A stretch of 35,812 nucleotides of DNA from Sulfurospirillum sp. UBA12182 (GCA_002742765.1 DLUF01000102.1:1-35812), one strand, 5' to 3'. Positions 10,928 through 22,174 are shown, numbered from the stretch's first letter. Numbers and translations: made by a program. Notes: generated by a model not told the origin, from the sequence alone.

Positions 10928-11362
10928 ATGAAAGGAATTTTAATTTCTTTATTGGCTGTTTTAGTTTTTGTTGGTTGCGGTGGGAAAGTGGATAAAAAAT
11001 CCCAATATAATTACATAAGTGCAGATGAAACTGCAAAAATTATGATGGAAAATCCAGATAAAATAGTTCTAATCGATATCCAAGAAAAAGATGATTTTGA
11101 GGAAGAACACTTAAAAGGCGCTATCGGAACATATGCATATCCAGTGAAAACTGAAGAGGAAAAAGCACGTATCGCAAAACACATCCAAGATATCAAACCT
11201 GATCAAAAAGTTGTTGTTGTATGCCCAAGAGGTGGTGGCGGTGCTGATAGAGCATATGATTTTCTACTTCAAAGTGGTATCAAAAAAGAGAACCTTTTTA
11301 CTCTCACAGATGGTCAGTATGGTTGGCCACGAGACAGACTTAGTGATGTTTTAGACAATTAA
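10928..11362 (+). CDS. Rhodanese-like lipoprotein
   Basis: This is a 144-residue exported single-domain rhodanese. The signal peptide ends in a lipobox (LVFVGC, Cys17), so it should be a lipoprotein on the periplasmic side. The rhodanese fold is seen in YISADETAKIM, IVLIDIQEKDDFEEEHLKGAI and the active loop VVVCPRGGGGADRAYDFL, with Cys99 as the likely persulfide-carrying residue. The loop is glycine-rich and followed by Asp-Arg. Rhodaneses move sulfane sulfur or bind oxyanions; the substrate is unknown. It has a strong AGGAGG site and begins a four-gene operon with its paralogue, an HdrD-like protein and a TVP38/TMEM64 protein. Confidence 0.88.
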   Translation: MKGILISLLAVLVFVGCGGKVDKKSQYNYISADETAKIMMENPDKIVLIDIQEKDDFEEEHLKGAIGTYAYPVKTEEEKARIAKHIQDIKPDQKVVVVCPRGGGGADRAYDFLLQSGIKKENLFTLTDGQYGWPRDRLSDVLDN

Positions 11363-11381: not shown

Positions 11382-11825
11382 ATGTTAAAGAAAATAGCAG
11401 CTATCACAAGCGCACTTCTCGTTAGTGCAACAGTTATGTTTGGCGGTGTTTTTGATGTTTTCAAAGGCTATAACTATATCAGTGCTGAGGAGACTGCTGA
11501 GTTAATCCGTACAAACCCACAGAGTATCGTTTTGATCGATATCCAAGAGAAACCAGGTTTTGCAAAAGAGCATCTTATAGGTGCGATTGAAACAAATGCA
11601 TACCCAGTGAAAAAACAAGATGAACTTGATAGATTGGCTGCACTTTTACCACAAATCAAGCCAGACCAAAAGGTTATCATTATATGTCCAAGAGGTGGTG
11701 GCGGTGCTGATAGAGCATATGATTTCTATCTCAAAAGTGGTATAAATAAAGACAATATCTTTACACTAAAAAATGGTCAAGAAGGTTGGCCAAGAGAACA
11801 AATCAGCGACGTTTTGGCTAAATAA
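11382..11825 (+). CDS. Periplasmic rhodanese-like protein, paralogue of the preceding gene
   Basis: This 147-residue protein is a tandem duplicate of the upstream gene, roughly 60 percent identical by eye after the signal region. It has an ordinary signal peptide (about 1-22) without a lipobox Cys, so it should be soluble in the periplasm. The active loop IIICPRGGGGADRAYDFYL with Cys102 is preserved. A 38-base stretch around that loop (11688-11725) is identical at DNA level to 11225-11262 in the paralogue, which suggests recent duplication or gene conversion. The stop overlaps the ATG of the HdrD-like gene (TAATG). Confidence 0.88.
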   Translation: MLKKIAAITSALLVSATVMFGGVFDVFKGYNYISAEETAELIRTNPQSIVLIDIQEKPGFAKEHLIGAIETNAYPVKKQDELDRLAALLPQIKPDQKVIIICPRGGGGADRAYDFYLKSGINKDNIFTLKNGQEGWPREQISDVLAK

Positions 11826-12898
11826 TGAATCACGAACAAGAGTGCATTGACTGTAAAGCTTGCATGAAGGGTTGCTTGATGATGGGAGAGTTTACCGACT
11901 CTCCTAAAACCCTCTTAGAGAGTATCAAAAACTCACCTGCCAATGTAGCATTTTCCTGTGCTGCTTGTGGATATTGTGAGCATGTTTGTCCTAAGGACAT
12001 TAGTATTCAAGAGTATTTTGTAGAGCGAAAAAAAGAGTTAGCTCCTAGCGAGCTTCACAATTTTGGATATAAAGCCGTTTTGTTCCACCAAGTGCTTAGT
12101 TTTTCTAAATCTTTAACGACTATCAAAAAGTTTTCAACTTCTAACTATTCTAATGTAGCTTTTATGCCTGGGTGTGCGTTGAGTTCTTATTCTCCAAGAT
12201 TAGTGGAGTCTATTATCCACCATTTACAAAAAGTCTCTCCAGGGATGGGCGTACTTATGCAATGTTGTGGAAAACCAACCCGTATGCTCGGCGATATGCC
12301 TCGTTTTGAGAATTTTTATAGTAAATTAGACGCTGATATAGATCGTCTAGGTATTGATACTGTGGTAACTGCCTGTGAGAATTGTTATATGAGTCTTAAA
12401 GAGTGTTCCCCTCACGTAAAGACTATTTCTTTATATGAGTGGCTAGATATGAAGGGAATACCAGAGTGTTCATTTGAACATGCGCAAATTGTTGCTCTTC
12501 ATGATCCGTGTCCTACAAGGCTTGAAAAAAGCTTACATGAAAGTGTTCGTTCACTTTTAAATAAAATGAAACTCCCTTTTAAAGAGTTTCGCTTTAATCG
12601 TGAAAAAACACAATGTTGTGGTAGTGGAGGAATGCTTGATGTAACAAATCCAAAACTAGCTAAACAGCAAATGGTTTCGCGTGCTAACCAAACTGAGTGT
12701 CAGACAATCGTTACTTATTGTCAAGAGTGTGCCAGATCTATGAGTAGAGGAGGAAAAAGTGGAGTGCATATCTTAGATTTACTCTTTACTCCTTCAGTAG
12801 CACAAAGCTTTAAACAACCACTTCATGGTGCACTTACATCATGGATAAATCGTTATAAAACAAAACAAATAATCAAAAATTTTAAAGTAAAAATATGA
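11825..12898 (+). CDS. HdrD/GlpC-like iron-sulfur protein with two CCG domains
   Basis: This 357-residue cytoplasmic protein carries two 4Fe-4S ferredoxin motifs (C7, C10, C13, C17 and C45, C48, C51, C55) and two cysteine-rich CCG domains (C117, C147-C148, C184, C187 and C229, C264-C265, C299, C302). This is the build of heterodisulfide reductase subunit D, GlpC and LutA/GlcF relatives, which pass electrons to or from thiols, disulfides or quinones. It has no membrane helix or flavin domain. It lies between exported rhodaneses and a membrane protein, so a role in sulfur or metalloid redox chemistry is plausible but not shown. It overlaps both neighbours by 1 and 4 bases. Confidence 0.85.
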   Translation: MNHEQECIDCKACMKGCLMMGEFTDSPKTLLESIKNSPANVAFSCAACGYCEHVCPKDISIQEYFVERKKELAPSELHNFGYKAVLFHQVLSFSKSLTTIKKFSTSNYSNVAFMPGCALSSYSPRLVESIIHHLQKVSPGMGVLMQCCGKPTRMLGDMPRFENFYSKLDADIDRLGIDTVVTACENCYMSLKECSPHVKTISLYEWLDMKGIPECSFEHAQIVALHDPCPTRLEKSLHESVRSLLNKMKLPFKEFRFNREKTQCCGSGGMLDVTNPKLAKQQMVSRANQTECQTIVTYCQECARSMSRGGKSGVHILDLLFTPSVAQSFKQPLHGALTSWINRYKTKQIIKNFKVKI

Positions 12899-13584
12899 TA
12901 AAAAAATTCATTTTAATAGCCTTTTTTATAGGGATGATTGTTGCATATAATATGTTAGGATTGGAGACAATATTGTCTTTTGAAATGCTTAAAGCAAAAA
13001 AAGAGTTATTGTTAGAGTTGGTGCAAAATCATTTTTTGCTTAGTGCTTTTTTATTGATGGGCTTATATGCTATTTCTGTTGCATTGATGATTCCTATCGC
13101 AACTCTATTTTCTTTAGCTGCTGGTTTTATGTTTGGTAGTATTTGGGGAACGCTGTTTGCAGTGCTTGGGGCAACGCTTGGCGCAGTTGCAAGTTTTTAT
13201 GTTGCACGTTTTATTCTTGGTGAGAGCCTTCAAAACAAATATGCAAAAGAATTAGAACGTTTTAACAATGAGTTTGCAGCAAATGGTTACAGTTATCTTT
13301 TTGCGTTGCGGTTACTTCCTATTTTTCCTTTTTTCCTGATTAACCTTTTATGTGGTCTTACTCGTATTGATATCAAAACCTTTTTTATTACAACTTTTAT
13401 CGGTATCATCCCTGGAGGATTTGCTTACACATACGCTGGCTCGCAACTCTCTTCTATCAATGCGTTGGGGGACATCTTTACCAAAGAGATGGGATTAGCG
13501 CTTCTCTTTTTAGGGCTTATTTCTTTGGTTCCAGTCTTGTATAAAAAATGGAATCAAAAAAAATTTAAAAATCAAAATTTATAA
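12895..13584 (+). CDS. TVP38/TMEM64 family membrane protein
   Basis: This 229-residue integral membrane protein of the DedA/VTT superfamily has a start helix (about 5-23) and further helices around 47-68, 75-105, 130-160 and 200-220. Family landmarks are ATLFSLAAGFMFGSIWGTLFAVLGATLGA and LRLLPIFPFFLINLLCGLTRI followed by FFITTFIGIIPGGFAYTYAGS (about residues 139-183). Superfamily members move or remodel lipids. To my knowledge TVP38/TMEM64 genes are often found with ArsM or TIGR04283 glycosyltransferase genes, which fits this neighbourhood. Its start overlaps the HdrD-like stop, and its end overlaps the convergent glycosyltransferase by 13 bases. Confidence 0.85.
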   Translation: MIKKFILIAFFIGMIVAYNMLGLETILSFEMLKAKKELLLELVQNHFLLSAFLLMGLYAISVALMIPIATLFSLAAGFMFGSIWGTLFAVLGATLGAVASFYVARFILGESLQNKYAKELERFNNEFAANGYSYLFALRLLPIFPFFLINLLCGLTRIDIKTFFITTFIGIIPGGFAYTYAGSQLSSINALGDIFTKEMGLALLFLGLISLVPVLYKKWNQKKFKNQNL

Positions 13585-14870
13585 AAGTTTTTTAGCCTTT
13601 TTGCTGAGACTCCAAAGAAGTAGAGTGTACTTAAAACTCTATTTCTAAGGCTTGTATAGATAATACCCTCTTTGTGCCATCTTCTATCTGAAGTTTGCAC
13701 TTTTTGCTTTAAAATCTCTACTTTGAGATTTTGTTGATGAATTTTTTTAATGATAGCAACATCTTCCATAAGAGGTATCTCATCGTATCCACCAACTTTA
13801 TTGAAAAGTTGAGAGCTAATAAACTGTGCTTGGTCACCATATGGAGTGTTTGTAAAAACAACTCGAAGATTTGCTAAAAACTCTATAACTTTGATAAGCA
13901 AGTTTTTTGTTTTTATCCCTAGTTTAAAAGCCCCAGCTAGATTTTTATCTTTTACATGTAAACTTTTTATAAGTAAATCCCACTCTTTTGGTACAAGAGT
14001 ATCAGCATGTAAAAAGAGTAAAATCTCTCCTTTGGCTCTTTTAGCCCCTTCATTTAGCTGATATGCTCTACCAGCTTTTGGTGCGCAAGTTGTTCGTAAG
14101 TTTGTAGTTTCTATATCTTCTATCGTAGTTTTTAAAGGAGTATCAACGATGATGATTTCATAGTTGTTTTCTCTTGCATTGGCTCTTAAATGCTTCAAAG
14201 TTTTTGGCAAGTTCTCTTTTTCGTAGTATACTGGGATGATGACACTGATGCGTGGTAGTGTGGCTAAAAAACTCTTTACATGTAAAGCAAGTTTACTTTG
14301 AAGATTTAGAGTATCAAAACTTCTCAAATCCTCTAAAACATCCACATCAAAAAGCTCTTTTCCAATCTTTACATGTAAAGGCTCTAGTGCTTGTAAAGTT
14401 TGAGAAAAAACCTCTTTACTAAAGTCAATCTCAAATGCTTTTTGGCTAAAACACTCTTTATGAAAACCGATGAGATAGTATCCTCCATCACGACTTGGAT
14501 TTAAAACTGCTTGTTCAAACTCAAATGCTTCATTGATAACCCCCTCATCTAAAAGAGGGATATCACCACCTACTAAGATAGCTTTTTCATATCCATTCTC
14601 AAACACTTTCTCAAATGCATTTGCCATCTTTTGCCCTATATCCTCTCCCACTTGAATAAAGCACTCAAGCCCATCAAAATGTTTTTGATATGTAGGTGTG
14701 TAAGCTTCTACAAAAACAAGCTTAGAAGCCTCTACTTGTAAGCCTAAAATCTGCTCTAATATGAGTTTATAAAGCTCAAGTGCTTCAACTTCGCCGATAC
14801 TTTTTGCAAGTCTTGTTTTGACTTTGGCTAAAAGTGGCTCTTTGGTAAAGATGATGAGTGCTGTTTTCAA
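13572..14870 (-). CDS. Fusion of DUF2064 nucleotidyltransferase-like (TIGR04282) and family 2 glycosyltransferase (TIGR04283)
   Basis: The 432 residues hold two complete enzyme domains. Residues 1-195 are a MobA/CofC-like DUF2064 domain of the TIGR04282 group: FTKEPLLAKVKTRLA, VGGDIPLLDEG (GGD 101-103) and PSRDGGYYLIG (125-135). Residues 207-432 are a GT-A glycosyltransferase of the TIGR04283 group: ISVIIPVYYEKENLPKTL, APKAGRAYQLNEGA, LFLHADTLVP (HAD 288-290), YGDQAQFI and WHKEGI. The two groups are usually separate neighbouring genes in arsenosugar or rSAM/selenodomain-associated clusters. Fused, one part could activate a sugar and the other transfer it. The ATG at 14870 overlaps the end of the kinase gene by 4 bases. 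Four copies of the TACATGTA palindrome fall in or beside this gene. Confidence 0.85.
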   Translation of the reverse strand: MKTALIIFTKEPLLAKVKTRLAKSIGEVEALELYKLILEQILGLQVEASKLVFVEAYTPTYQKHFDGLECFIQVGEDIGQKMANAFEKVFENGYEKAILVGGDIPLLDEGVINEAFEFEQAVLNPSRDGGYYLIGFHKECFSQKAFEIDFSKEVFSQTLQALEPLHVKIGKELFDVDVLEDLRSFDTLNLQSKLALHVKSFLATLPRISVIIPVYYEKENLPKTLKHLRANARENNYEIIIVDTPLKTTIEDIETTNLRTTCAPKAGRAYQLNEGAKRAKGEILLFLHADTLVPKEWDLLIKSLHVKDKNLAGAFKLGIKTKNLLIKVIEFLANLRVVFTNTPYGDQAQFISSQLFNKVGGYDEIPLMEDVAIIKKIHQQNLKVEILKQKVQTSDRRWHKEGIIYTSLRNRVLSTLYFFGVSAKRLKNFYKF

Positions 14871-15826
14871 AAAAACCTTTCAAGGATACGCAAAAACTCT
14901 TCTGTACTTTTTACATGTAAGCTTCCAATCTCGTTTGCTATGCTAAAAGCTAACTCATACGCTTGTGTATTTTGCAAGTCCTTTGATTTTGCAGGAACAA
15001 AAAGGCGCCTTGCCATCTCAACCGAACAAAAACCTATGGCATTTTGAACAATATCTTTTTCAAAAGGTTTTAACAAAGCATAGATTTTTTCTTGATAAGG
15101 GGTGTTTTTATGCCCAATTTGAGCTAAGATGACATGGGCTAAGAGATTGCCGATATCAAAACTCACTTCACAAAAGAGTGAAAATTCACTATCGATGATA
15201 GCTATACAATCCTCTTTTACCATGACTGAATCACTGTGTAAATCCCCGTGAATCAGTGAAGTCTTAGAGTGTAAAAAAACCTCTTTCAATCTCTCTTTAT
15301 TTGCTAAAAACTCCGCTGAAAACTCTCGCCATTGAAAAAAATCTAATATGACTAAAGCTTCATGATTTTTGATAAAAGGAAACTCAAACACATAGTTTTT
15401 TGTTATCTGCTTTAACTCTTCACACTCATAGTACGCGTTATTTTGTGGAGTCTTTTGTGAGAGAGAAAAAAGAAAATTGCCAAGCTTTTTATATGCTGTT
15501 GTGTTTTGTGGATTTTCTCTAAGTGAGCTGTAACCATCAAGATACTCCATCACAAAAAAGTGCTCATTCTCACTTTTATGATAGATTTTTGGAACAAAAT
15601 CAGGTGCGATAGAGTGAAAATACTCCATAGAATTCATCTCAGCAACTACTCTTTTTTGTGTGAGTTGAAAATCTTTTCCAAGTATCTTGAGATAGGGTTT
15701 TGCATGTTTGATGGCGTATGTTTTTTCTCCATCATTTAGCTTATAAACATAGTTCATATTGCCGTCTCCTATCTCAGTGGAGTTTTCAAGAAGAGTGGCT
15801 AAGGAAGTTCTTTTAAAATCTAGCAT
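14867..15826 (-). CDS. 5-methylthioribose kinase-like sugar kinase (MtnK/APH fold)
   Basis: This 319-residue aminoglycoside-phosphotransferase-fold kinase resembles S-methyl-5-thioribose kinase: the nucleotide loop EIGDGNMNYVYK (GDGN 20-23), Lys40 in YAIKHAKPYL, the Brenner motif LIHGDLHSDSVMV (HGD 193-195) and IIDSEF (Asp212, Glu214), the D-x-E-F metal motif of MtnK in place of DFG. It then has VSFDIGNLLAH. It is shorter than typical MtnK (about 400). I start at ATG 15826, which has GAAGG 5 bases upstream; an ATG 27 codons earlier only translates the operator region. MtnK phosphorylates the anomeric carbon of 5-methylthioribose. No mtnA or other salvage genes are here, and the neighbours suggest another 5-deoxy-5-substituted ribose as substrate (inference). 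Confidence 0.8.
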   Translation of the reverse strand: MLDFKRTSLATLLENSTEIGDGNMNYVYKLNDGEKTYAIKHAKPYLKILGKDFQLTQKRVVAEMNSMEYFHSIAPDFVPKIYHKSENEHFFVMEYLDGYSSLRENPQNTTAYKKLGNFLFSLSQKTPQNNAYYECEELKQITKNYVFEFPFIKNHEALVILDFFQWREFSAEFLANKERLKEVFLHSKTSLIHGDLHSDSVMVKEDCIAIIDSEFSLFCEVSFDIGNLLAHVILAQIGHKNTPYQEKIYALLKPFEKDIVQNAIGFCSVEMARRLFVPAKSKDLQNTQAYELAFSIANEIGSLHVKSTEEFLRILERFF

Positions 15827-15829
15827 AAA

Positions 15830-15880
15830 AACCTTCGTTATGATAACCTGCGTTATTATAACGAAGGTTATCTTAGATAA
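15830..15880. promoter_or_regulatory. Three-copy 12-bp operator-like motif over the kinase promoter
   Basis: The 12-mer AACCTTCGTTAT lies at 15830-15841, AACCTGCGTTAT at 15845-15856 in the same direction, and its inverse ATAACGAAGGTT at 15858-15869. Copies two and three with flanks form a 31-bp palindrome (15842-15872) with one mismatched pair. TTATCT-T-AGATAA (15868-15880) is a further 13-bp palindrome. On the minus strand TATAAT (15860 to 15855) lies inside the palindrome and would start transcription just upstream of the kinase ATG. This layout is typical of repressor binding over a promoter. The regulator is unknown, and I did not find the 12-mer elsewhere in the window. Confidence 0.65.
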
Positions 15881-15953
15881 AAGGAGACTTATCCCAGCTT
15901 TTTGCACCTTGAATCTTTTTATAAAATTCGTATCTTTCTAGCAATTTACTCAT
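15873..15953 (-). CDS. Very short ORF, possibly a truncated gene start
   Basis: ATG at 15953 overlaps the end of the winged-helix remnant (ATGAGTAA) and reads 26 codons, beginning MSKLLERYEFYKKIQGAKSW, before a TAA at 15873-15875 inside the operator region. The composition is protein-like (charged helix, then K-S-W-D-K). It may be the cut-off start of a former gene or a real small protein. I recognise no family, and coding status is uncertain. Confidence 0.25.
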   Translation of the reverse strand: MSKLLERYEFYKKIQGAKSWDKSPFI

Positions 15954-16307: not shown

Positions 16308-19295
16308 ATGCAAGATTTTTTAACAGATTGGAATCGTGTTTTATTTGAAAACACACCAGTATATTTTTATAAACATAGTGCGGATTGGTTTGTGCCAAAT
16401 GCAAAAGCAGATGAGATTTTACAAGCTAAAAAAGATGATTTAGAAGCGATAAAACTAAAAAACCGCATCTCTTTACCTAACCCAAGAGTCTATACAAAAC
16501 AGCCACAAAAAGAGCAGACGAACTTACAAGAGTTTTGGTTACATGTAACAAATCGCTGCAATATTGAATGTACGCACTGTCTCTTTAGCTCTTCGATTCA
16601 CGACAAAGATACTCTAAGCTTGGAATTGATGCAAAAGCATATCAAAGATGCGTATGAGCTAGGGTGTAGGCTTTTTGTTCTAAGTGGTGGTGAGCCATTT
16701 GTACGAGAAGATATCAATGAGCTTTTAGAGTTTATATTCTCACTTAAAGATTCAAAGGTAGTGATTCTAACCAACGGAATGCTCCTTGAAAAAAACCTAT
16801 CAAAAAAGAATTTTGATAAAAGTAGACTCTCACTTCAAATAAGCCTAGATGGACTCGAAAATGAGCATGATGCCATCAGGGGAAAAGGGAGTTTTGCAAA
16901 ATTAGCTAAAAATCTAAAGTGGCTAAAAAATGAGGGATATACTTTTTCAATCTCTACTTGCTTGACACCTCTTAGCATAGAAAATTTAGATGAAATTATC
17001 GATTTGATTTACTCTTTTGGAGCTAGTCATGTCCACTTTTTGTGGTACTTTGCAGAGGGAAGAGCAAAAGAAGATACTCTTTTAGAATCACAAAAGATTT
17101 ACGAAGCACTTACCAAAGCTTATGAAAAATCAAAAAAATTAGGCATCTTTATAGATAACTTTGAAGCACTCAAAACTCAAATCTTCGCTCCAAAAGGGAC
17201 TGTGCACGATGGTTCAAGTTCTGCTAGAACTTCTTTGGCTCTTGGTTATGATGGAGCATTTTACCCAAGTGCAGCGACTGTTGGGATGCAGGATCTTTTA
17301 CTTGATGGAGTGAGTATCGAAGAAGCTCTCTCAAGCCCAAAAGCAAGGGAGATTCAAAGCCAAAGTGTTTTACATGTAAACTCTACTATGCGCTTTATCC
17401 TAGGTGGGGGAGATTTAGACCATAGCTTTTCTCACTCTAAAACTTTGATAGGCGATGACCCTTACGAGCCACTTATAGAAAAACTTGCTCTTTATCTTAT
17501 AACAAGTGAAGCAAAAAGGTTTGATACAAATCCAAGTAAAGCCAATCTTACTTTAGAGATGGGAGATATCCTCTACACTTGTGGAGCGAGCGAGGGAGTG
17601 GCGCATACTCACGCAAACTGTTTATTAGCCACAGGAGAGAGTGAATCTCTCAGTTTTGTCAAAGAGTTTTACACTGAGGCAGCAGACGAAGATAAAGAAG
17701 ACATCTTAAATCCAGCTTGTTATGAAGAGGAGTACTTAGCTCATATCCCTTCAAAATATCGTTTTCGAGGATACGGATGTGGTAGTCCTATCTTAGAAGC
17801 CAACCTAAAAGAGGGTGAAGCTCATCTTGATCTAGGAAGTGGAAGAGGGGTAGAGTGTTTTATCTCTTCAAAGCTTGTAGGAAAAAGTGGAAAAGTAGTG
17901 GGTGTTGATATGCTTGACTCTATGCTTTCTATAGCAAAAGATGGAGCAAAAGAGTGTGCACAAAATCTTGGTTTTGCTAACTTAGAGTTTAAAAAAGGCT
18001 ACCTTGAAAAACTTCCTCTTGAAGATGGAAGTTTTGATGTCATCACTTCAAACTGTGTTCTCAATCTCTCTACACATAAAAGAGAGCTTTTTAGTGAGAT
18101 TTATAGAGTTTTAAAAGAGGGTGGAAGAGTTGTTATCTCTGATGTAGTGTGTGATGAAGAAGCAAGTGCGCTCATACGCAATGATGCAAAACTCAGTGGT
18201 GAGTGTATCGCTGGTGCACTTAGCATAAGCCATCTTGTAGGACTTTTAAAAGAGTCTGGCTTTGAAGGTGTAGAGTTTGTAAAACGTTTCTTTTACAGAG
18301 AAGTAAAAGGAGAGAAGTTTTATTCGCTTACTTTTAAAGCCTATAAACCAGATACACAAAAAAAAGTAGATGTAATTTACAAAGGCTTAGGCGAGAGCAT
18401 CACACTAGAAAATGGTCAAACACTTTTCAAAGGAGTGAAGACTAGCATAGCTAAAGAGTTTGCAGAGGCTTTAAATGATGTTGTGTTTATCTTAGATGAA
18501 AAAGGTGAAGTGACAAACCAAGAGGGTGAAGCTTGTAACTGTGCACTTCCTCCTGAAGAGAAGATAGAGCCTAAAAAACCAACTTTCTCTTTTTCTCCAT
18601 TTGTCCAAAAGCATACAAGCAACTGTATGGTGTGTAAATCCCCACTCGTTTATGGCAATGAAGTCAAAGAAGTAGAGTGCTTTTACTGTAAAACTAAGGC
18701 TAGCAGTAGCGTTACATGTAAAGAGGGACACTATGTGTGTGATAAGTGTCACTCAAAAGAGGCACTGCAAGTTATAGAACAGATTTGCCAAGCCTCAAAG
18801 CAGACAGATATGATGGAGCTATTTCGTACCATAAGAGAGCATCCAAGTATCCCAAAACATGGACCTGAACACCACGCGATGGTGCCAGCTATCATCGTAA
18901 CAGCTTATAGAAATCTTGGAAATGAGATACCAAAAAATGCACTCAAAACAGCTCTTAGTCGAGGTTCTACGGTTATAGGTGGTTCATGTGGATTTATGGG
19001 GATGTGTGGGGCTGCTAGTGGTGTAGGTATAGGCTTTGCGATACTTCTTGAAGCAAGTCCAGTGACAAGCACTTCAAGGATGATGGCGCAACAAGTAACG
19101 CATAAAGTCTTAGGTGAGATAGCAAAGTATGAAGCAGCACGTTGTTGTAATCGAGAAGTATGGACTGCTCTCACGCTTGCTAGTAAATTCTCCGAGGAGT
19201 TTTTAAAAGTGCATTTACCAACGACTGAGGAAGTAAAGTGTGACCAAAAGAGATACAACCAGTACTGCTATGGTAAAGAGTGCCCGATATTTTAG
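16308..19295 (+). CDS. Trifunctional fusion: radical SAM / ArsM-like methyltransferase / DUF5714
   Basis: The 995 residues hold three domains. (1) Radical SAM, about 75-350: LHVTNRCNIECTHC with cluster cysteines C84, C88 and C91, then LSGGEPFVRED and SLQISLDGL; the stretch after it (about 300-360) lacks the cysteines of a SPASM auxiliary-cluster domain. (2) Arsenite-methyltransferase-like domain, about 465-680: SAM loop LDLGSGRGVECF, and the ArsM cysteines C471, C491 (YGCGSP), C583 (SNCVLNL) and C633 (SGECIAG); the last two are 50 apart, as in characterised ArsM (C174/C224). (3) DUF5714, about 770-990: zinc-type cysteines C773, C776, C791, C794, C804, C811, C814, then HGPEHHAMVPAIIVTAYRN and GGSCGFMGMCGAASGVGIG. 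Arsenite or a related metalloid is the likely methyl acceptor; the product is unknown. The ABC importer follows directly. Confidence 0.82.
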   Translation: MQDFLTDWNRVLFENTPVYFYKHSADWFVPNAKADEILQAKKDDLEAIKLKNRISLPNPRVYTKQPQKEQTNLQEFWLHVTNRCNIECTHCLFSSSIHDKDTLSLELMQKHIKDAYELGCRLFVLSGGEPFVREDINELLEFIFSLKDSKVVILTNGMLLEKNLSKKNFDKSRLSLQISLDGLENEHDAIRGKGSFAKLAKNLKWLKNEGYTFSISTCLTPLSIENLDEIIDLIYSFGASHVHFLWYFAEGRAKEDTLLESQKIYEALTKAYEKSKKLGIFIDNFEALKTQIFAPKGTVHDGSSSARTSLALGYDGAFYPSAATVGMQDLLLDGVSIEEALSSPKAREIQSQSVLHVNSTMRFILGGGDLDHSFSHSKTLIGDDPYEPLIEKLALYLITSEAKRFDTNPSKANLTLEMGDILYTCGASEGVAHTHANCLLATGESESLSFVKEFYTEAADEDKEDILNPACYEEEYLAHIPSKYRFRGYGCGSPILEANLKEGEAHLDLGSGRGVECFISSKLVGKSGKVVGVDMLDSMLSIAKDGAKECAQNLGFANLEFKKGYLEKLPLEDGSFDVITSNCVLNLSTHKRELFSEIYRVLKEGGRVVISDVVCDEEASALIRNDAKLSGECIAGALSISHLVGLLKESGFEGVEFVKRFFYREVKGEKFYSLTFKAYKPDTQKKVDVIYKGLGESITLENGQTLFKGVKTSIAKEFAEALNDVVFILDEKGEVTNQEGEACNCALPPEEKIEPKKPTFSFSPFVQKHTSNCMVCKSPLVYGNEVKEVECFYCKTKASSSVTCKEGHYVCDKCHSKEALQVIEQICQASKQTDMMELFRTIREHPSIPKHGPEHHAMVPAIIVTAYRNLGNEIPKNALKTALSRGSTVIGGSCGFMGMCGAASGVGIGFAILLEASPVTSTSRMMAQQVTHKVLGEIAKYEAARCCNREVWTALTLASKFSEEFLKVHLPTTEEVKCDQKRYNQYCYGKECPIF

Positions 19296-19303
19296 GAGAA
19301 GTT

Positions 19304-20191
19304 GTGAGAAAGATTTTATTGTTTTTATGTAGCTGTGGGTTGCTCTTAGCAAACCCTCTTAAAATCGCGTATCAAGATAGAGTTATAGATGCGCTTTTTA
19401 TCGTTGCAAATGCGCAAAATTTGTTTGAAAATTCTGAAGTGGAGTTAAAGAGGTTTAGCAGTGGACCAGCGACCAATGAAGCTTTACTTTTTGGAGATGT
19501 GAGTATGGCTACGATGGGCGACACTGCTGCACTCATCGCTCTTTCAAAATACTGCCCAAAAGTAAAAATCTACTCAATCTTAGGCGGTGGAGAGGCTCGT
19601 CACAGTATCGTGGTGAGAAAAGAGAGCGATATAAAAACTTTGCAAGATTTGGCTGGCAAAAAGATAGCTATCAAAAAAGGCACTTCTACTCATGGTGGCT
19701 TTTTGCTCAAAACTTCTCAGATGGGAGTAAATCTGAACAAAGAGTTGATGGACTTAAGCCCTTCACTTATGGCTCAAGCGCTTTTAAGCAAAGAAGTAGA
19801 TGCCATCGTGGCAAGTGAGCCAACTCCAAGCGTCATCGTAGAAAAGGGTTTTGCCAAAAGACTTTTGAGCTTAGATGGCGTAGGAAGCAACTATCCGCTT
19901 GCCTTGGTAATCAAGAGTGAAAGCTTTGATGCATCAAAGATGTCAAAAGTTTTAGAGGTCTTAAAAAAAGCTCAAGAGTTTATAAAAACAAATCCTCAAG
20001 CAAGCTATGAGATCATCTCTAAAGCAACAGGGCTGAGTCTGGGTAGCACCAAAGAGGCGATGGCAAAACATGAGTATAAAGTGGGATTTGATGATGTTTC
20101 TATGAAAAGTTTGCAAAAAGTAGCGAACTTTTTATTTGAACAAAAAAAGATAAAGTCTCTACCTGATTTTGAAGCGTGTTTGATAAGATAA
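19304..20191 (+). CDS. NitT/TauT-type ABC transporter substrate-binding protein
   Basis: This 295-residue periplasmic binding protein has a signal peptide ending near LLLANP (about residue 15) and a SsuA/TauA/NMT1-like fold: LKIAYQDRVIDALFIVANAQ, SSGPATNEALLFGDVSMATMGDTAAL, SIVVRKESDIKTLQDLAGKKIAIKKGTSTHG (as region about 100-132), and KEVDAIVASEPTPS. The ligand cannot be read from sequence; family members bind sulfonates, nitrate, pyrimidines or other small organics. I chose GTG 19304 because AGGAG (19294-19298) lies 5 bases before it and a signal peptide follows at once; an earlier in-frame GTG at 19280 lies inside the upstream gene. It follows the radical SAM/ArsM fusion by 8 bases, so the importer is probably co-transcribed with it. 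Confidence 0.85.
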   Translation: MRKILLFLCSCGLLLANPLKIAYQDRVIDALFIVANAQNLFENSEVELKRFSSGPATNEALLFGDVSMATMGDTAALIALSKYCPKVKIYSILGGGEARHSIVVRKESDIKTLQDLAGKKIAIKKGTSTHGGFLLKTSQMGVNLNKELMDLSPSLMAQALLSKEVDAIVASEPTPSVIVEKGFAKRLLSLDGVGSNYPLALVIKSESFDASKMSKVLEVLKKAQEFIKTNPQASYEIISKATGLSLGSTKEAMAKHEYKVGFDDVSMKSLQKVANFLFEQKKIKSLPDFEACLIR

Positions 20192-20192
20192 T

Positions 20193-20966
20193 ATGCTAAA
20201 AAAACTCCTCTTTTCACTCTTTTTATTTGTATTATTTCTCCTTTCTTGGGCTTTGTTTGGCTTAGGAGTTGAACACTTTAGGGGCGTGCCTTTTCCTATG
20301 CCTCAAAGTGTGTTTTATAGATTTTACGAGTTTTTGAGTGGAGAGCTTTTATACGAACACCACATCTTAGAGCATTTTTTTGCAAGTCTGAAACGATGGC
20401 TTTTTGCTTATGTTTTAGCGGCACTTTTTGGGTTTTGTTTAGGGCTTATAAGTGGTTGGTTTGAAAAAACTCATAAACTAGGGGTGATGAGCGCAACACT
20501 TTTGCAGATGATGCCAGGACTTGCTTGGATACCTTTTGCGATGCTTCTTTTTGGTATCGGAGAGAAGGCAACACTTTTTATGATATTTATGACGGCTTTT
20601 CCTCCAATCTTTTTACATGTAAGCACAGCTGTGGCAAATCTACCTAAAGAGTATGTGAAGATGGGGCAAATGATGGGGCTTAGTAGGGGAGTTTTTTTAG
20701 GCAAAATCCTCTTTCCTTATCTCTTGCCTTCCTTAGTCGTAGGGCTTCGCATAGGGCTTGCTATAGGCTGGAGAGTTTTGATAGCTGCGGAGATGGTTGT
20801 GGGAGGAAGCCAAGGACTAGGCTATACTATCATCCAATCTCGTTGGTCGCTTGATTTTGAATCTGCTTTTATCTCCATAGGGCTTATCTGCTTGGTTGGT
20901 CTTTTTTTTGAAAAATTTGTCTTCACAAAAGTAGAAGAGTATATCCATAAAAGGCTTCGTATATGA
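20193..20966 (+). CDS. ABC transporter permease, SsuC/TauC type
   Basis: This 257-residue permease has six expected transmembrane helices. Helices are visible at about 5-24, 65-88, 97-120, 125-147, 175-200 and 222-243. The EAA loop that docks the ATPase is PSLVVGLRIGLAIGWRVLIAAEMVVG (about 179-205, given as region), as in the NitT/TauT permease group. It begins one base after the stop of the binding protein and overlaps the ATPase gene by 4 bases, so the three form one importer. One TACATGTA copy lies at 20614-20621. Confidence 0.9.
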   Translation: MLKKLLFSLFLFVLFLLSWALFGLGVEHFRGVPFPMPQSVFYRFYEFLSGELLYEHHILEHFFASLKRWLFAYVLAALFGFCLGLISGWFEKTHKLGVMSATLLQMMPGLAWIPFAMLLFGIGEKATLFMIFMTAFPPIFLHVSTAVANLPKEYVKMGQMMGLSRGVFLGKILFPYLLPSLVVGLRIGLAIGWRVLIAAEMVVGGSQGLGYTIIQSRWSLDFESAFISIGLICLVGLFFEKFVFTKVEEYIHKRLRI

Positions 20967-21700
20967 GACTTTTAAGTGCTAAAAATCTCTCAAAAGCTTA
21001 CTATCTGCAAAAAGATGAGAGCTGTATCTTGGCTCTTTCAAACATAAACTTTGAGATACAAAAAGGTGAATTTGTCTCCATAGTAGGACCTAGTGGCTGT
21101 GGTAAATCAACTCTTTTGAAGCTCATCGCTGGGTTTGAGCAAAAAAGCAGTGGGAATCTTTTGTTTGAAGACAAAGAGATAAAAACTCCTCATGGCAAGC
21201 GAAACTATATCCCCCAAGATAGTGGGCTTTTCCCATGGCTAAATGTCGAAGAAAATGTAAAACTTGCTATCAATAAAAAAGAAGATAAAGAGAAAAAAGC
21301 CCTTGAGTGTTTAGAAAAAGTAGGATTAGCAAAGTTTGCTAAAGCTTATATAGATGAGCTCTCAGGTGGTATGAAACAGCGAGTTGCACTTGCAAGAGCC
21401 TTGGCTATGGAGTCTAAGCTCATCCTCTTAGATGAGCCATTTTCCGCACTTGATGAGCTAAGTCGCGAGAAGATAGATAGAGAACTTTTAGAGTTTTTTG
21501 CGCAAAATGAGATGAGTACTATCTTAGTAACGCACTCCATCAAAGAGGCGATTATCCTCTCTGATAGAATTTTTGTGATGGATACAAATCCTGGGTATAT
21601 CATAAAAATGATAAGCGTAAAAAAAGAGAAAGACTCTCACTACAAAGAGAGCCTTTATGAAGAGATTTTGTCGTTGTTTAATAACTCTTCTACTTTTTGA
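20963..21700 (+). CDS. ABC transporter ATP-binding protein, SsuB/TauB type
   Basis: This 245-residue nucleotide-binding subunit completes the importer. Walker A is GPSGCGKSTLLKLIAG (about 43-58), the Q-loop region is YIPQDSGLFPWLNVEENV, the signature is LSGGMKQRVALARAL (about 134-148), Walker B is LILLDEPFSALDELS, and the switch His is in LVTHSIKEAI. The ATG overlaps the permease stop. The last 46 bases overlap the 3-prime end of the convergent C_GCAxxG_C_C gene. No intrinsic terminator follows directly. Confidence 0.92.
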   Translation: MRLLSAKNLSKAYYLQKDESCILALSNINFEIQKGEFVSIVGPSGCGKSTLLKLIAGFEQKSSGNLLFEDKEIKTPHGKRNYIPQDSGLFPWLNVEENVKLAINKKEDKEKKALECLEKVGLAKFAKAYIDELSGGMKQRVALARALAMESKLILLDEPFSALDELSREKIDRELLEFFAQNEMSTILVTHSIKEAIILSDRIFVMDTNPGYIIKMISVKKEKDSHYKESLYEEILSLFNNSSTF

Positions 21701-22080
21701 GTGACAAACTCTATGTACTTAGCGCATTTTTGATTTTTACAATCCCCCGATTCAAACTTTGCTCCACCATCGCTATCTGTGAGGTTAAAGCTCAAAAGAG
21801 TTGAACAGCTAGTTGCGCCAAACTCTTTTTCAAAACTGCTTCTAAGTTCAGCTATATCTTCAAAGAGTTTATCTACTCCTTCGTTATTTGAAGCTCTTCC
21901 TTGCACTGCTGAGAGAGCTAAAATCCCACCACTTAAAGCACCACAAAGAGAGTTTCCATAAGCGATACCAGCACCAAAAGCACTCGATGCTCTCAAAAGA
22001 GTTTCATCTTTGATAAAGTTTTTTACGATGGCTTCTGAACAAAGATATCCATCTAAAAAATCTTTTACAGCGTTGTTCAT
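21655..22080 (-). CDS. C_GCAxxG_C_C family putative redox protein
   Basis: This 141-residue cytoplasmic protein belongs to the cysteine-rich C_GCAxxG_C_C family (TIGR01909/PF09719), thought to be redox-active or cofactor-binding but without assigned reaction. The family Cys pattern is seen in GYLCSEAIV, FGAGIAYGNSLCGALSGGILALS, FGATSCSTLL and the tail SGDCKNQKCAKYIEFV. The usual first GCA Cys position here reads A-G. I chose the inner ATG at 22080, with GGAG 6 bases upstream, over an ATG four codons earlier that has no site. It overlaps the ABC ATPase gene tail-to-tail by 46 bases. Confidence 0.75.
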   Translation of the reverse strand: MNNAVKDFLDGYLCSEAIVKNFIKDETLLRASSAFGAGIAYGNSLCGALSGGILALSAVQGRASNNEGVDKLFEDIAELRSSFEKEFGATSCSTLLSFNLTDSDGGAKFESGDCKNQKCAKYIEFVTQKVEELLNNDKISS

Positions 22081-22174
22081 ATCCGTCTCCATTTTTATTT
22101 TATTGTAACTTTTCTATGATAAAAAGTAGATTTTTAAGAGAAAATTTGTCTCATTAATAAATTGTTTATAAAAT

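Follow-up and report, generated by a model that had tools for sequence, protein, structure and literature searches.

A three-domain radical SAM, ArsM-like and DUF5714 protein of Sulfurospirillum that may stand in for ArsM and ArsS

In oxo-arsenosugar synthesis, a radical S-adenosylmethionine (SAM) enzyme is reported to adenosylate arsenic by ArsS-type chemistry (PMC12159101), and ArsS (TIGR04167) is paired with the methyltransferase ArsM, as in Synechocystis. Arsinothricin synthesis (arsQML) also brings a radical SAM enzyme, ArsL, and ArsM to one arsenical, the ArsL-type chemistry being aminocarboxypropyl transfer (PMC8552651). Here we describe a gene of Sulfurospirillum sp. UBA12182 whose single product joins a radical SAM domain, an ArsM-like methyltransferase and DUF5714. 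It lies in a stretch of 35,812 nucleotides (GCA_002742765.1 DLUF01000102.1:1-35812), and "the window" below means the whole of this analysed stretch. With a rough probability of 0.55, we propose that this trifunctional protein replaces separate ArsM and ArsS and supplies the organoarsenic precursor for a compound of the arsenosugar type. The gene and its parts are as follows.

16308..19295, plus strand: trifunctional protein (radical SAM, ArsM-like methyltransferase, DUF5714), 995 aa; identified by open reading frame (ORF), Pfam, NCBIfam and orthologues
16308..17711, plus strand: radical SAM part, residues 1-468; Pfam Radical_SAM, partial NCBIfam matches, ArsS profile comparison and Foldseek
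17655..18545, plus strand: ArsM-like As(III) methyltransferase part, residues ~450-746; PDB matches 4kw7, 4fr0, 5evj and 8xt7, Foldseek, tree and alignment
18501..19292, plus strand: DUF5714 part, residues 732-995; Pfam match (E 2.2e-59), partial match to MbdU NF045648 and invariant residues

The ORF is open over 995 codons, and the Pfam search bore out the three-domain composition given in a preliminary description of this DNA. Radical_SAM was located at residues 80-234 (E 1.7e-20; 74.3 bits against a cut-off of 29.5), Methyltransf_31 at residues 501-639 (E 2.2e-29, over the curated cut-off) and DUF5714 (PF18978) at residues 823-994 (200.3 bits against a gathering score of 26.2). The gene is present as a single copy in its own genome, and matches at E<=1e-30 were found in 22 of 100 related genomes, two of which (G002 and G029) match only via the ArsM part of a separate ArsS-ArsM fusion. 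Full-length orthologues in the Sulfurospirillaceae share 60-76% identity and include those of S. arcachonense (76%), S. diekertiae and S. cavolei. A contig scan with the alignment returned 15 loci, all from Sulfurospirillum or related metagenome-assembled genomes, and the same scan with the single sequence as query gave no match. Among the orthologues, 28 of the 31 cysteines do not vary in any sequence in which the region concerned was read; C84 and C88 deviate in one sequence only, which has masked bases, and C550 is the sole non-conserved cysteine. Many histidines are invariant as well. Recurrence of the protein at full length, with this degree of identity and with invariant cysteines, rules out chance and shows the ORF and the three domains to be genuine.

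Two orthologous loci differ in architecture. In G003 (L022:3600-3780), the chain is split past the ArsM part into ORFs of 732 and 284 aa, although close relatives carry the fused form; the stop overlaps a possible ATG (TAATG), and the split may be natural or a sequence error. The preliminary description had raised the idea that a single chain could channel a methylated metalloid from site to site; this idea is speculative, and in this one relative the chain reads as two ORFs. The variant at L044:3-2603 has a shorter and different linker between the ArsM part and DUF5714. The full-length structural model (mean pLDDT 64.6, pTM 0.42) served for fold matches of the domains rather than for their arrangement.

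The middle domain closely resembles arsenic methyltransferases. Its top five sequence matches among solved structures are all enzymes of this kind (E 8e-38 to 5e-30, the next match being at 7e-12), and a Foldseek search with the full model returned ArsM or human AS3MT as the thirteen top matches, over ~300 columns. C491, C583 and C633 align with C72, C174 and C224 of algal ArsM (CmArsM, 4kw7), the last pair being 50 residues apart in both proteins, and C471 corresponds in the alignment to an upstream cysteine of bacterial ArsMs. All four As cysteines are thus kept, and all are invariant in the orthologues. The motifs GCGSP and DLGSGRG are found at residues 490-494 and 508-514, so the cysteines, the SAM loop and the GCGSP motif had been correctly placed in the preliminary description. 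A beta-rich stretch reaching to about residue 745, which contains 'YKG...' and ends in C743-x-C745, reads as the ArsM C-terminal subdomain. The domain therefore shares with the ArsM/AS3MT enzymes (the PRK11873/NF008823 group, including CmArsM) the SAM fold, the As cysteines with their last spacing and the C-terminal subdomain; it differs from them in forming its own clade, in scoring under the curated cut-off and in being the mid-part of a three-domain chain. In a phylogenetic tree, seven trifunctional sequences formed one fully supported clade. The ArsM affiliation proposed earlier was consistent with this analysis, as a single clade of all As-cysteine enzymes was not rejected (p-AU 0.277), but the deep branches among ArsM groups were weakly resolved. 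The middle domain looks as if it works like ArsM and is best termed ArsM-like.

The radical SAM part carries the canonical CX3CX2C cluster motif as C84-C88-C91, in agreement with the site described before. Judged by its sequence, it is not an ArsS, a distinction that had also been drawn beforehand: TIGR04167 matched nothing in the genome at E<=1e-20, and the best curated NCBIfam models (NirJ2, AhbD, Rv1681 and MftC types) matched only partially and far under their cut-offs. Profile comparison with ArsS was significant over the common core (98%), as expected of any SPASM-type relative. A degenerate SPASM-like segment reads 'GYDG.FYPSA', compared with 'YDG.YDCD' in ArsS, and the cysteine that follows 'YDG' in ArsS is serine in the trifunctional protein. 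In the linker past the radical SAM core, C425, H433, H435 and C438 are invariant. The structural neighbours of this part found by Foldseek were SkfB, BlsE, SuiB and viperin.

The evidence that links the protein to ArsS comes from its distribution. In a sample of 397 near-complete, quality-filtered genomes of the phylum, TIGR04283, a GT2 glycosyltransferase family encoded beside the trifunctional gene, was matched at E<=1e-30 in 33 genomes, one of which (G058) was weak and under the cut-off. The 32 strong genomes comprise 17 with ArsS and 15 with the DUF5714 protein, with no overlap, and every genome with ArsS or DUF5714 among the 397 has TIGR04283. Ignoring kinship, the hypergeometric probability is 2e-18 for finding all 15 DUF5714 genomes within the TIGR04283 set and 2e-7 for zero overlap among the 32. 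Kinship makes both probabilities too small, yet the alternative states occur within each of two genera and, in one case, in a further family. Within genus g1, the trifunctional protein is encoded by G000 and an ArsS-ArsM fusion by G002; in g5, the same holds for G006 and G012; the outlier from another family is G383. This exact partition, and the occurrence of ArsS in the same gene set, suggest that the trifunctional protein probably performs the functions of both ArsM and ArsS. A link to arsenosugar-type chemistry, which had been guessed from the window, is thereby backed by gene context and phyletic partition. Outside the quality-filtered sample, the less complete genome G038 (L057) encodes both a separate 332-aa ArsS and the trifunctional protein, at a short-contig locus without TIGR04283.

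ArsM and ArsS had been regarded as separate proteins, but this is not general. Relatives without the trifunctional protein (G002, G012, G029, G352 and G378) carry ArsS-ArsM fusions, as follows.

L053:8503-10506 (minus strand), L054:2881-4923, L115:9063-11201 and L116:6083-8158 (minus strand): ArsS-ArsM fusions, 668-713 aa, beside TIGR04283/TIGR04282 or the rhodanese/VTT/Fer4-CCG operon

The fusion in G002 sits by the same rhodanese/VTT/Fer4-CCG/VTT genes that accompany the trifunctional gene, and the other four lie by TIGR04283, three of them also by TIGR04282. These Campylobacterota fusions resemble the trifunctional protein in having radical SAM followed by ArsM in one chain and in their gene surroundings; unlike it, they have no DUF5714, and their ArsM part falls with CrArsM and AS3MT in the tree rather than with the middle domain described here. 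In other families, the ArsS operon contains a kinase-fused TIGR04282, TIGR04283, Fer4-CCG and C_GCAxxG_C_C, with two VTT genes in or near it. ArsS operons have a Fer4-CCG homologue either immediately ahead of ArsS or close to it, and in other genera a C_GCAxxG_C_C gene directly follows ArsS. The trifunctional system thus has in common with ArsS plus ArsM the neighbours TIGR04282, TIGR04283, Fer4-CCG, VTT and C_GCAxxG_C_C and a complementary distribution; it differs in a radical SAM domain that is no member of TIGR04167 and has lost the cysteine after 'YDG'. In G229 (L126, a 653-aa ORF), ArsS is fused behind a domain that, judged by eye, resembles a metallophosphoesterase (MPPE); an MPPE gene also occurs in the Paraclostridium ars operon.

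On the reading that we prefer, the middle domain would methylate As(III) with SAM via the ArsM cysteines, and the radical SAM domain would cleave SAM and add a SAM-derived group, most likely 5'-deoxyadenosyl, to the methylated arsenic. DUF5714, which is Cys-rich and probably metal-binding, would hold, reduce or pass on trivalent arsenic. A 5'-methylthioadenosine nucleosidase, whose gene is present in the genome, could then take off adenine, after which a neighbouring protein resembling 5-methylthioribose (MTR) kinase would phosphorylate O1 of 5-arsino-5-deoxyribose, a methylthioribose analogue. The TIGR04282 half of a fused neighbour would activate the sugar 1-phosphate with a nucleotide, and its TIGR04283 half would transfer the arsenosugar to an acceptor. 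The catalytic steps, their order and the element that is handled are all inferred; arsenic as the substrate is deduced from the ArsM domain and the ars-linked DUF5714 rather than from the sugar genes, because ArsM was not detected in 12 of the 17 genomes with ArsS. The genes surrounding the trifunctional gene are as follows.

10928..11362, plus strand: rhodanese-domain protein (Pfam Rhodanese), conserved in the cluster
11382..11825, plus strand: second rhodanese-domain protein (Pfam Rhodanese)
11825..12898, plus strand: Fer4 + CCG (cysteine-rich) redox protein, resembling part of NF045663 'dicluster-binding protein near Sec'
12895..13584, plus strand: VTT-domain (TVP38/DedA-like) membrane protein (Pfam VTT_dom, 1.5e-27)
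13572..14870, minus strand: fused TIGR04282 (CofC-like, DUF2064) and TIGR04283 (GT2 glycosyltransferase) by NCBIfam, conserved beside the trifunctional gene
14867..15907, minus strand: divergent MTR kinase-like protein (TIGR01767; 2pyw and 2olc matches), 4-base overlap with the TIGR04282-TIGR04283 gene
19280..21700, plus strand: three-gene ABC transporter of the NMT1/SsuA type (binding protein 19280-20191, permease 20193-20966, ATPase 20963-21700)
21655..22092, minus strand: C_GCAxxG_C_C putative redox protein (Pfam 5.9e-20), with homologues near the trifunctional gene

The fused protein scored 224 bits for TIGR04283 (cut-off 182) and 131.6 for TIGR04282 (cut-off 134), and both families bear the NCBI label 'arsenosugar biosynthesis glycosyltransferase'. 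Its partner, the MTR kinase-like protein, reached 178 bits against TIGR01767 (cut-off 275) and retains the HGD and RR motifs (here HGDLHSD and MARR), which recur in each of the 22 family members that were examined. In the plant MTR kinase, HGD contacts O1/O2 and RR contacts O2/O3 of methylthioribose (PMC2194712). The family was detected in 15/15 genomes with the trifunctional protein, compared with 2/48 controls. By analogy, the methylthio group of MTR would be the counterpart of a dimethylarsino group on the predicted intermediate. A role of the kinase in methionine salvage was also considered and is ruled out for the MtnA route, since no MtnA was found in the genome. In ArsS operons, TIGR04282 with a C-terminal kinase-like (thiamine-kinase-like) domain is encoded at L112:6848-8293 and L113:9884-11527 (minus strand), and the pairing of kinase and nucleotidyltransferase thus recurs there in another form.

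DUF5714 occurs in 15 of the 397 genomes, solely in the trifunctional protein or its split form. Its seven zinc-type cysteines (C773/776/791/794/804/811/814) are arranged like a zinc ribbon, with H808 and H815, and two Gly-rich Cys motifs lie in the C-terminal part, both features being as first reported; the motifs of this part include HGPEHH, GG.CGF.G.CGA, RCC and the C-terminal C978/C987/C992. Residues 764-995 gave a partial match to MbdU (NF045648, metal-binding double selenoprotein) at 135.5 bits against a cut-off of 600. The DUF5714 region aligns with MbdU, but the trifunctional protein has Cys for Sec, with no in-frame UGA in the ORF, and is fused to two more domains. No solved fold was matched in the PDB at E<=1e-3 (mean pLDDT of the model 67.7). 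A distant relationship to C_GCAxxG_C_C, considered on account of the common GG..CG motif, was rejected, as profile comparison gave it a probability of 6%. Elsewhere, a standalone DUF5714 gene adjoins arsM on three plasmids of Paraclostridium bifermentans (one at L060:8989-9711). Arsenic methylation and an arsM-acr3-MPPE-arsR1 operon are on record for a strain of this species (PMC11653729); a text search of that paper found no mention of a DUF protein. In one operon of Lachnospira eligens, the DUF5714 gene is flanked by the genes for an arsR-type regulator and for a low-molecular-weight phosphatase. Because of these arsM and arsR neighbours, a metalloid or cofactor role is suggested for DUF5714; the handling of trivalent arsenic is likely and our best guess. 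No paper in the open-licence literature searched names DUF5714.

Several observations weigh against a function in place of ArsM and ArsS. The trifunctional genomes belong to one bacterial family in 14 of 15 cases, so the partition amounts to a few independent events. By curated models, the radical SAM domain is no nearer to ArsS than to general SPASM families. The middle domain scored 209.7 bits for NF008823 (arsenite methyltransferase; 212.6 in the genome search) against a cut-off of 263, and its placement among ArsM groups is weakly resolved, as described above. DUF5714 genes also occur away from ars genes, with none adjacent in Selenomonas and Acetoanaerobium. Moreover, ArsS, TIGR04282 and TIGR04283 do not always go with arsenic methylation: in 12 of the 17 genomes that carry ArsS no ArsM could be detected, nor did a second model (NF038099) find one there.

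ArsS and TIGR04283 without detectable ArsM: G103, G129, G152, G182, G186, G215, G229, G231, G243, G307, G349, G360

These twelve genomes also speak for another explanation, which we consider rather unlikely, namely that the cluster builds a sugar conjugate of a non-arsenic substrate (thiol, selenol, Sb, Te or Hg), that 'arsenosugar' is a family name only and that the ArsM-like domain methylates that other element. The nearest relative of DUF5714 is MbdU, which is named a metal-binding selenoprotein (PMC13188914), the rhodaneses point to sulfur chemistry, and the ABC transporter is nearest to Sao (Sec-assisted organometal, SAO) and nitrate/taurine models, although none of the SAO models passes its cut-off (SaoA 207 bits of 360, SaoP 107.7 of 295, SaoX 21 of 300). 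The retention of all ArsM cysteines, including the C174/C224 pair, and the standalone DUF5714 genes beside arsM and arsR argue for arsenic instead. It is improbable that the protein serves detoxification, with arsenite methylated by ArsM and sequestered by DUF5714, a radical SAM domain that matures either DUF5714 or some small peptide, and sugar genes that form a separate nearby operon. Those genes (13572-15907) do lie on the opposite strand, and the radical SAM fold resembles peptide-maturing SPASM enzymes, but a detoxifier would not be expected to co-occur exactly with TIGR04283 and to exclude ArsS, and no peptide gene was noticed. Least probable, and in our view very doubtful, is an arsinothricin or ArsL-type function, which the ArsL and ArsM pair of arsinothricin synthesis (PMC8552651) and the second-best model of the middle domain, the arsinothricin ArsM NF040538 (182.7 bits, under the cut-off of 500), would favour. 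ArsL and ArsM are separate proteins and, unlike the trifunctional protein, are not accompanied by sugar genes; here the kinase, nucleotidyltransferase and glycosyltransferase neighbours demand a ribose, not an amino acid, and the window showed no ArsL-like partner.

If an organoarsenic precursor is indeed the product, the committed step of arsenosugar-type synthesis would have a second enzyme of independent build in the trifunctional protein, and this chemistry would then extend to common anaerobic Sulfurospirillum, including the three named species. DUF5714 would gain its first functional context, and an MTR kinase-like enzyme would be proposed for sugar activation. A bolder version is possible, and we offer it tentatively: that a non-ArsS radical SAM domain forms the C-As bond on a methylarsenical held by the fused ArsM and DUF5714 domains, leading from arsenite to an arsenic nucleoside in one chain, that the MTR kinase-like enzyme opens a new sugar-activation route to arsenosugars and that DUF5714 is an arsenical carrier or reductase. 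In one targeted search of the open-licence literature for work that connects these families, a methionine-salvage review was the sole result.

Gene content varies among the orthologous loci. The TIGR04282-TIGR04283 fusion (counted in loci with enough flank), the MTR kinase-like gene, one or two rhodaneses, Fer4-CCG and VTT proteins are common to them, and the ABC transporter or the C_GCAxxG_C_C protein is found in some only. The S. arcachonense locus has only the TIGR04282-TIGR04283 fusion and the MTR kinase-like gene within its 10-kb flanks. In the window, the binding-protein gene of the ABC transporter overlaps the trifunctional ORF by 16 bases, and the transporter genes follow the trifunctional gene, with their order kept, in L036, L039, L040 and L045. 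In the S. diekertiae group, a MIP-family channel gene directly follows the trifunctional gene (L034:12996-13814; also L042 and L056), by a CobW/GTPase-like gene.

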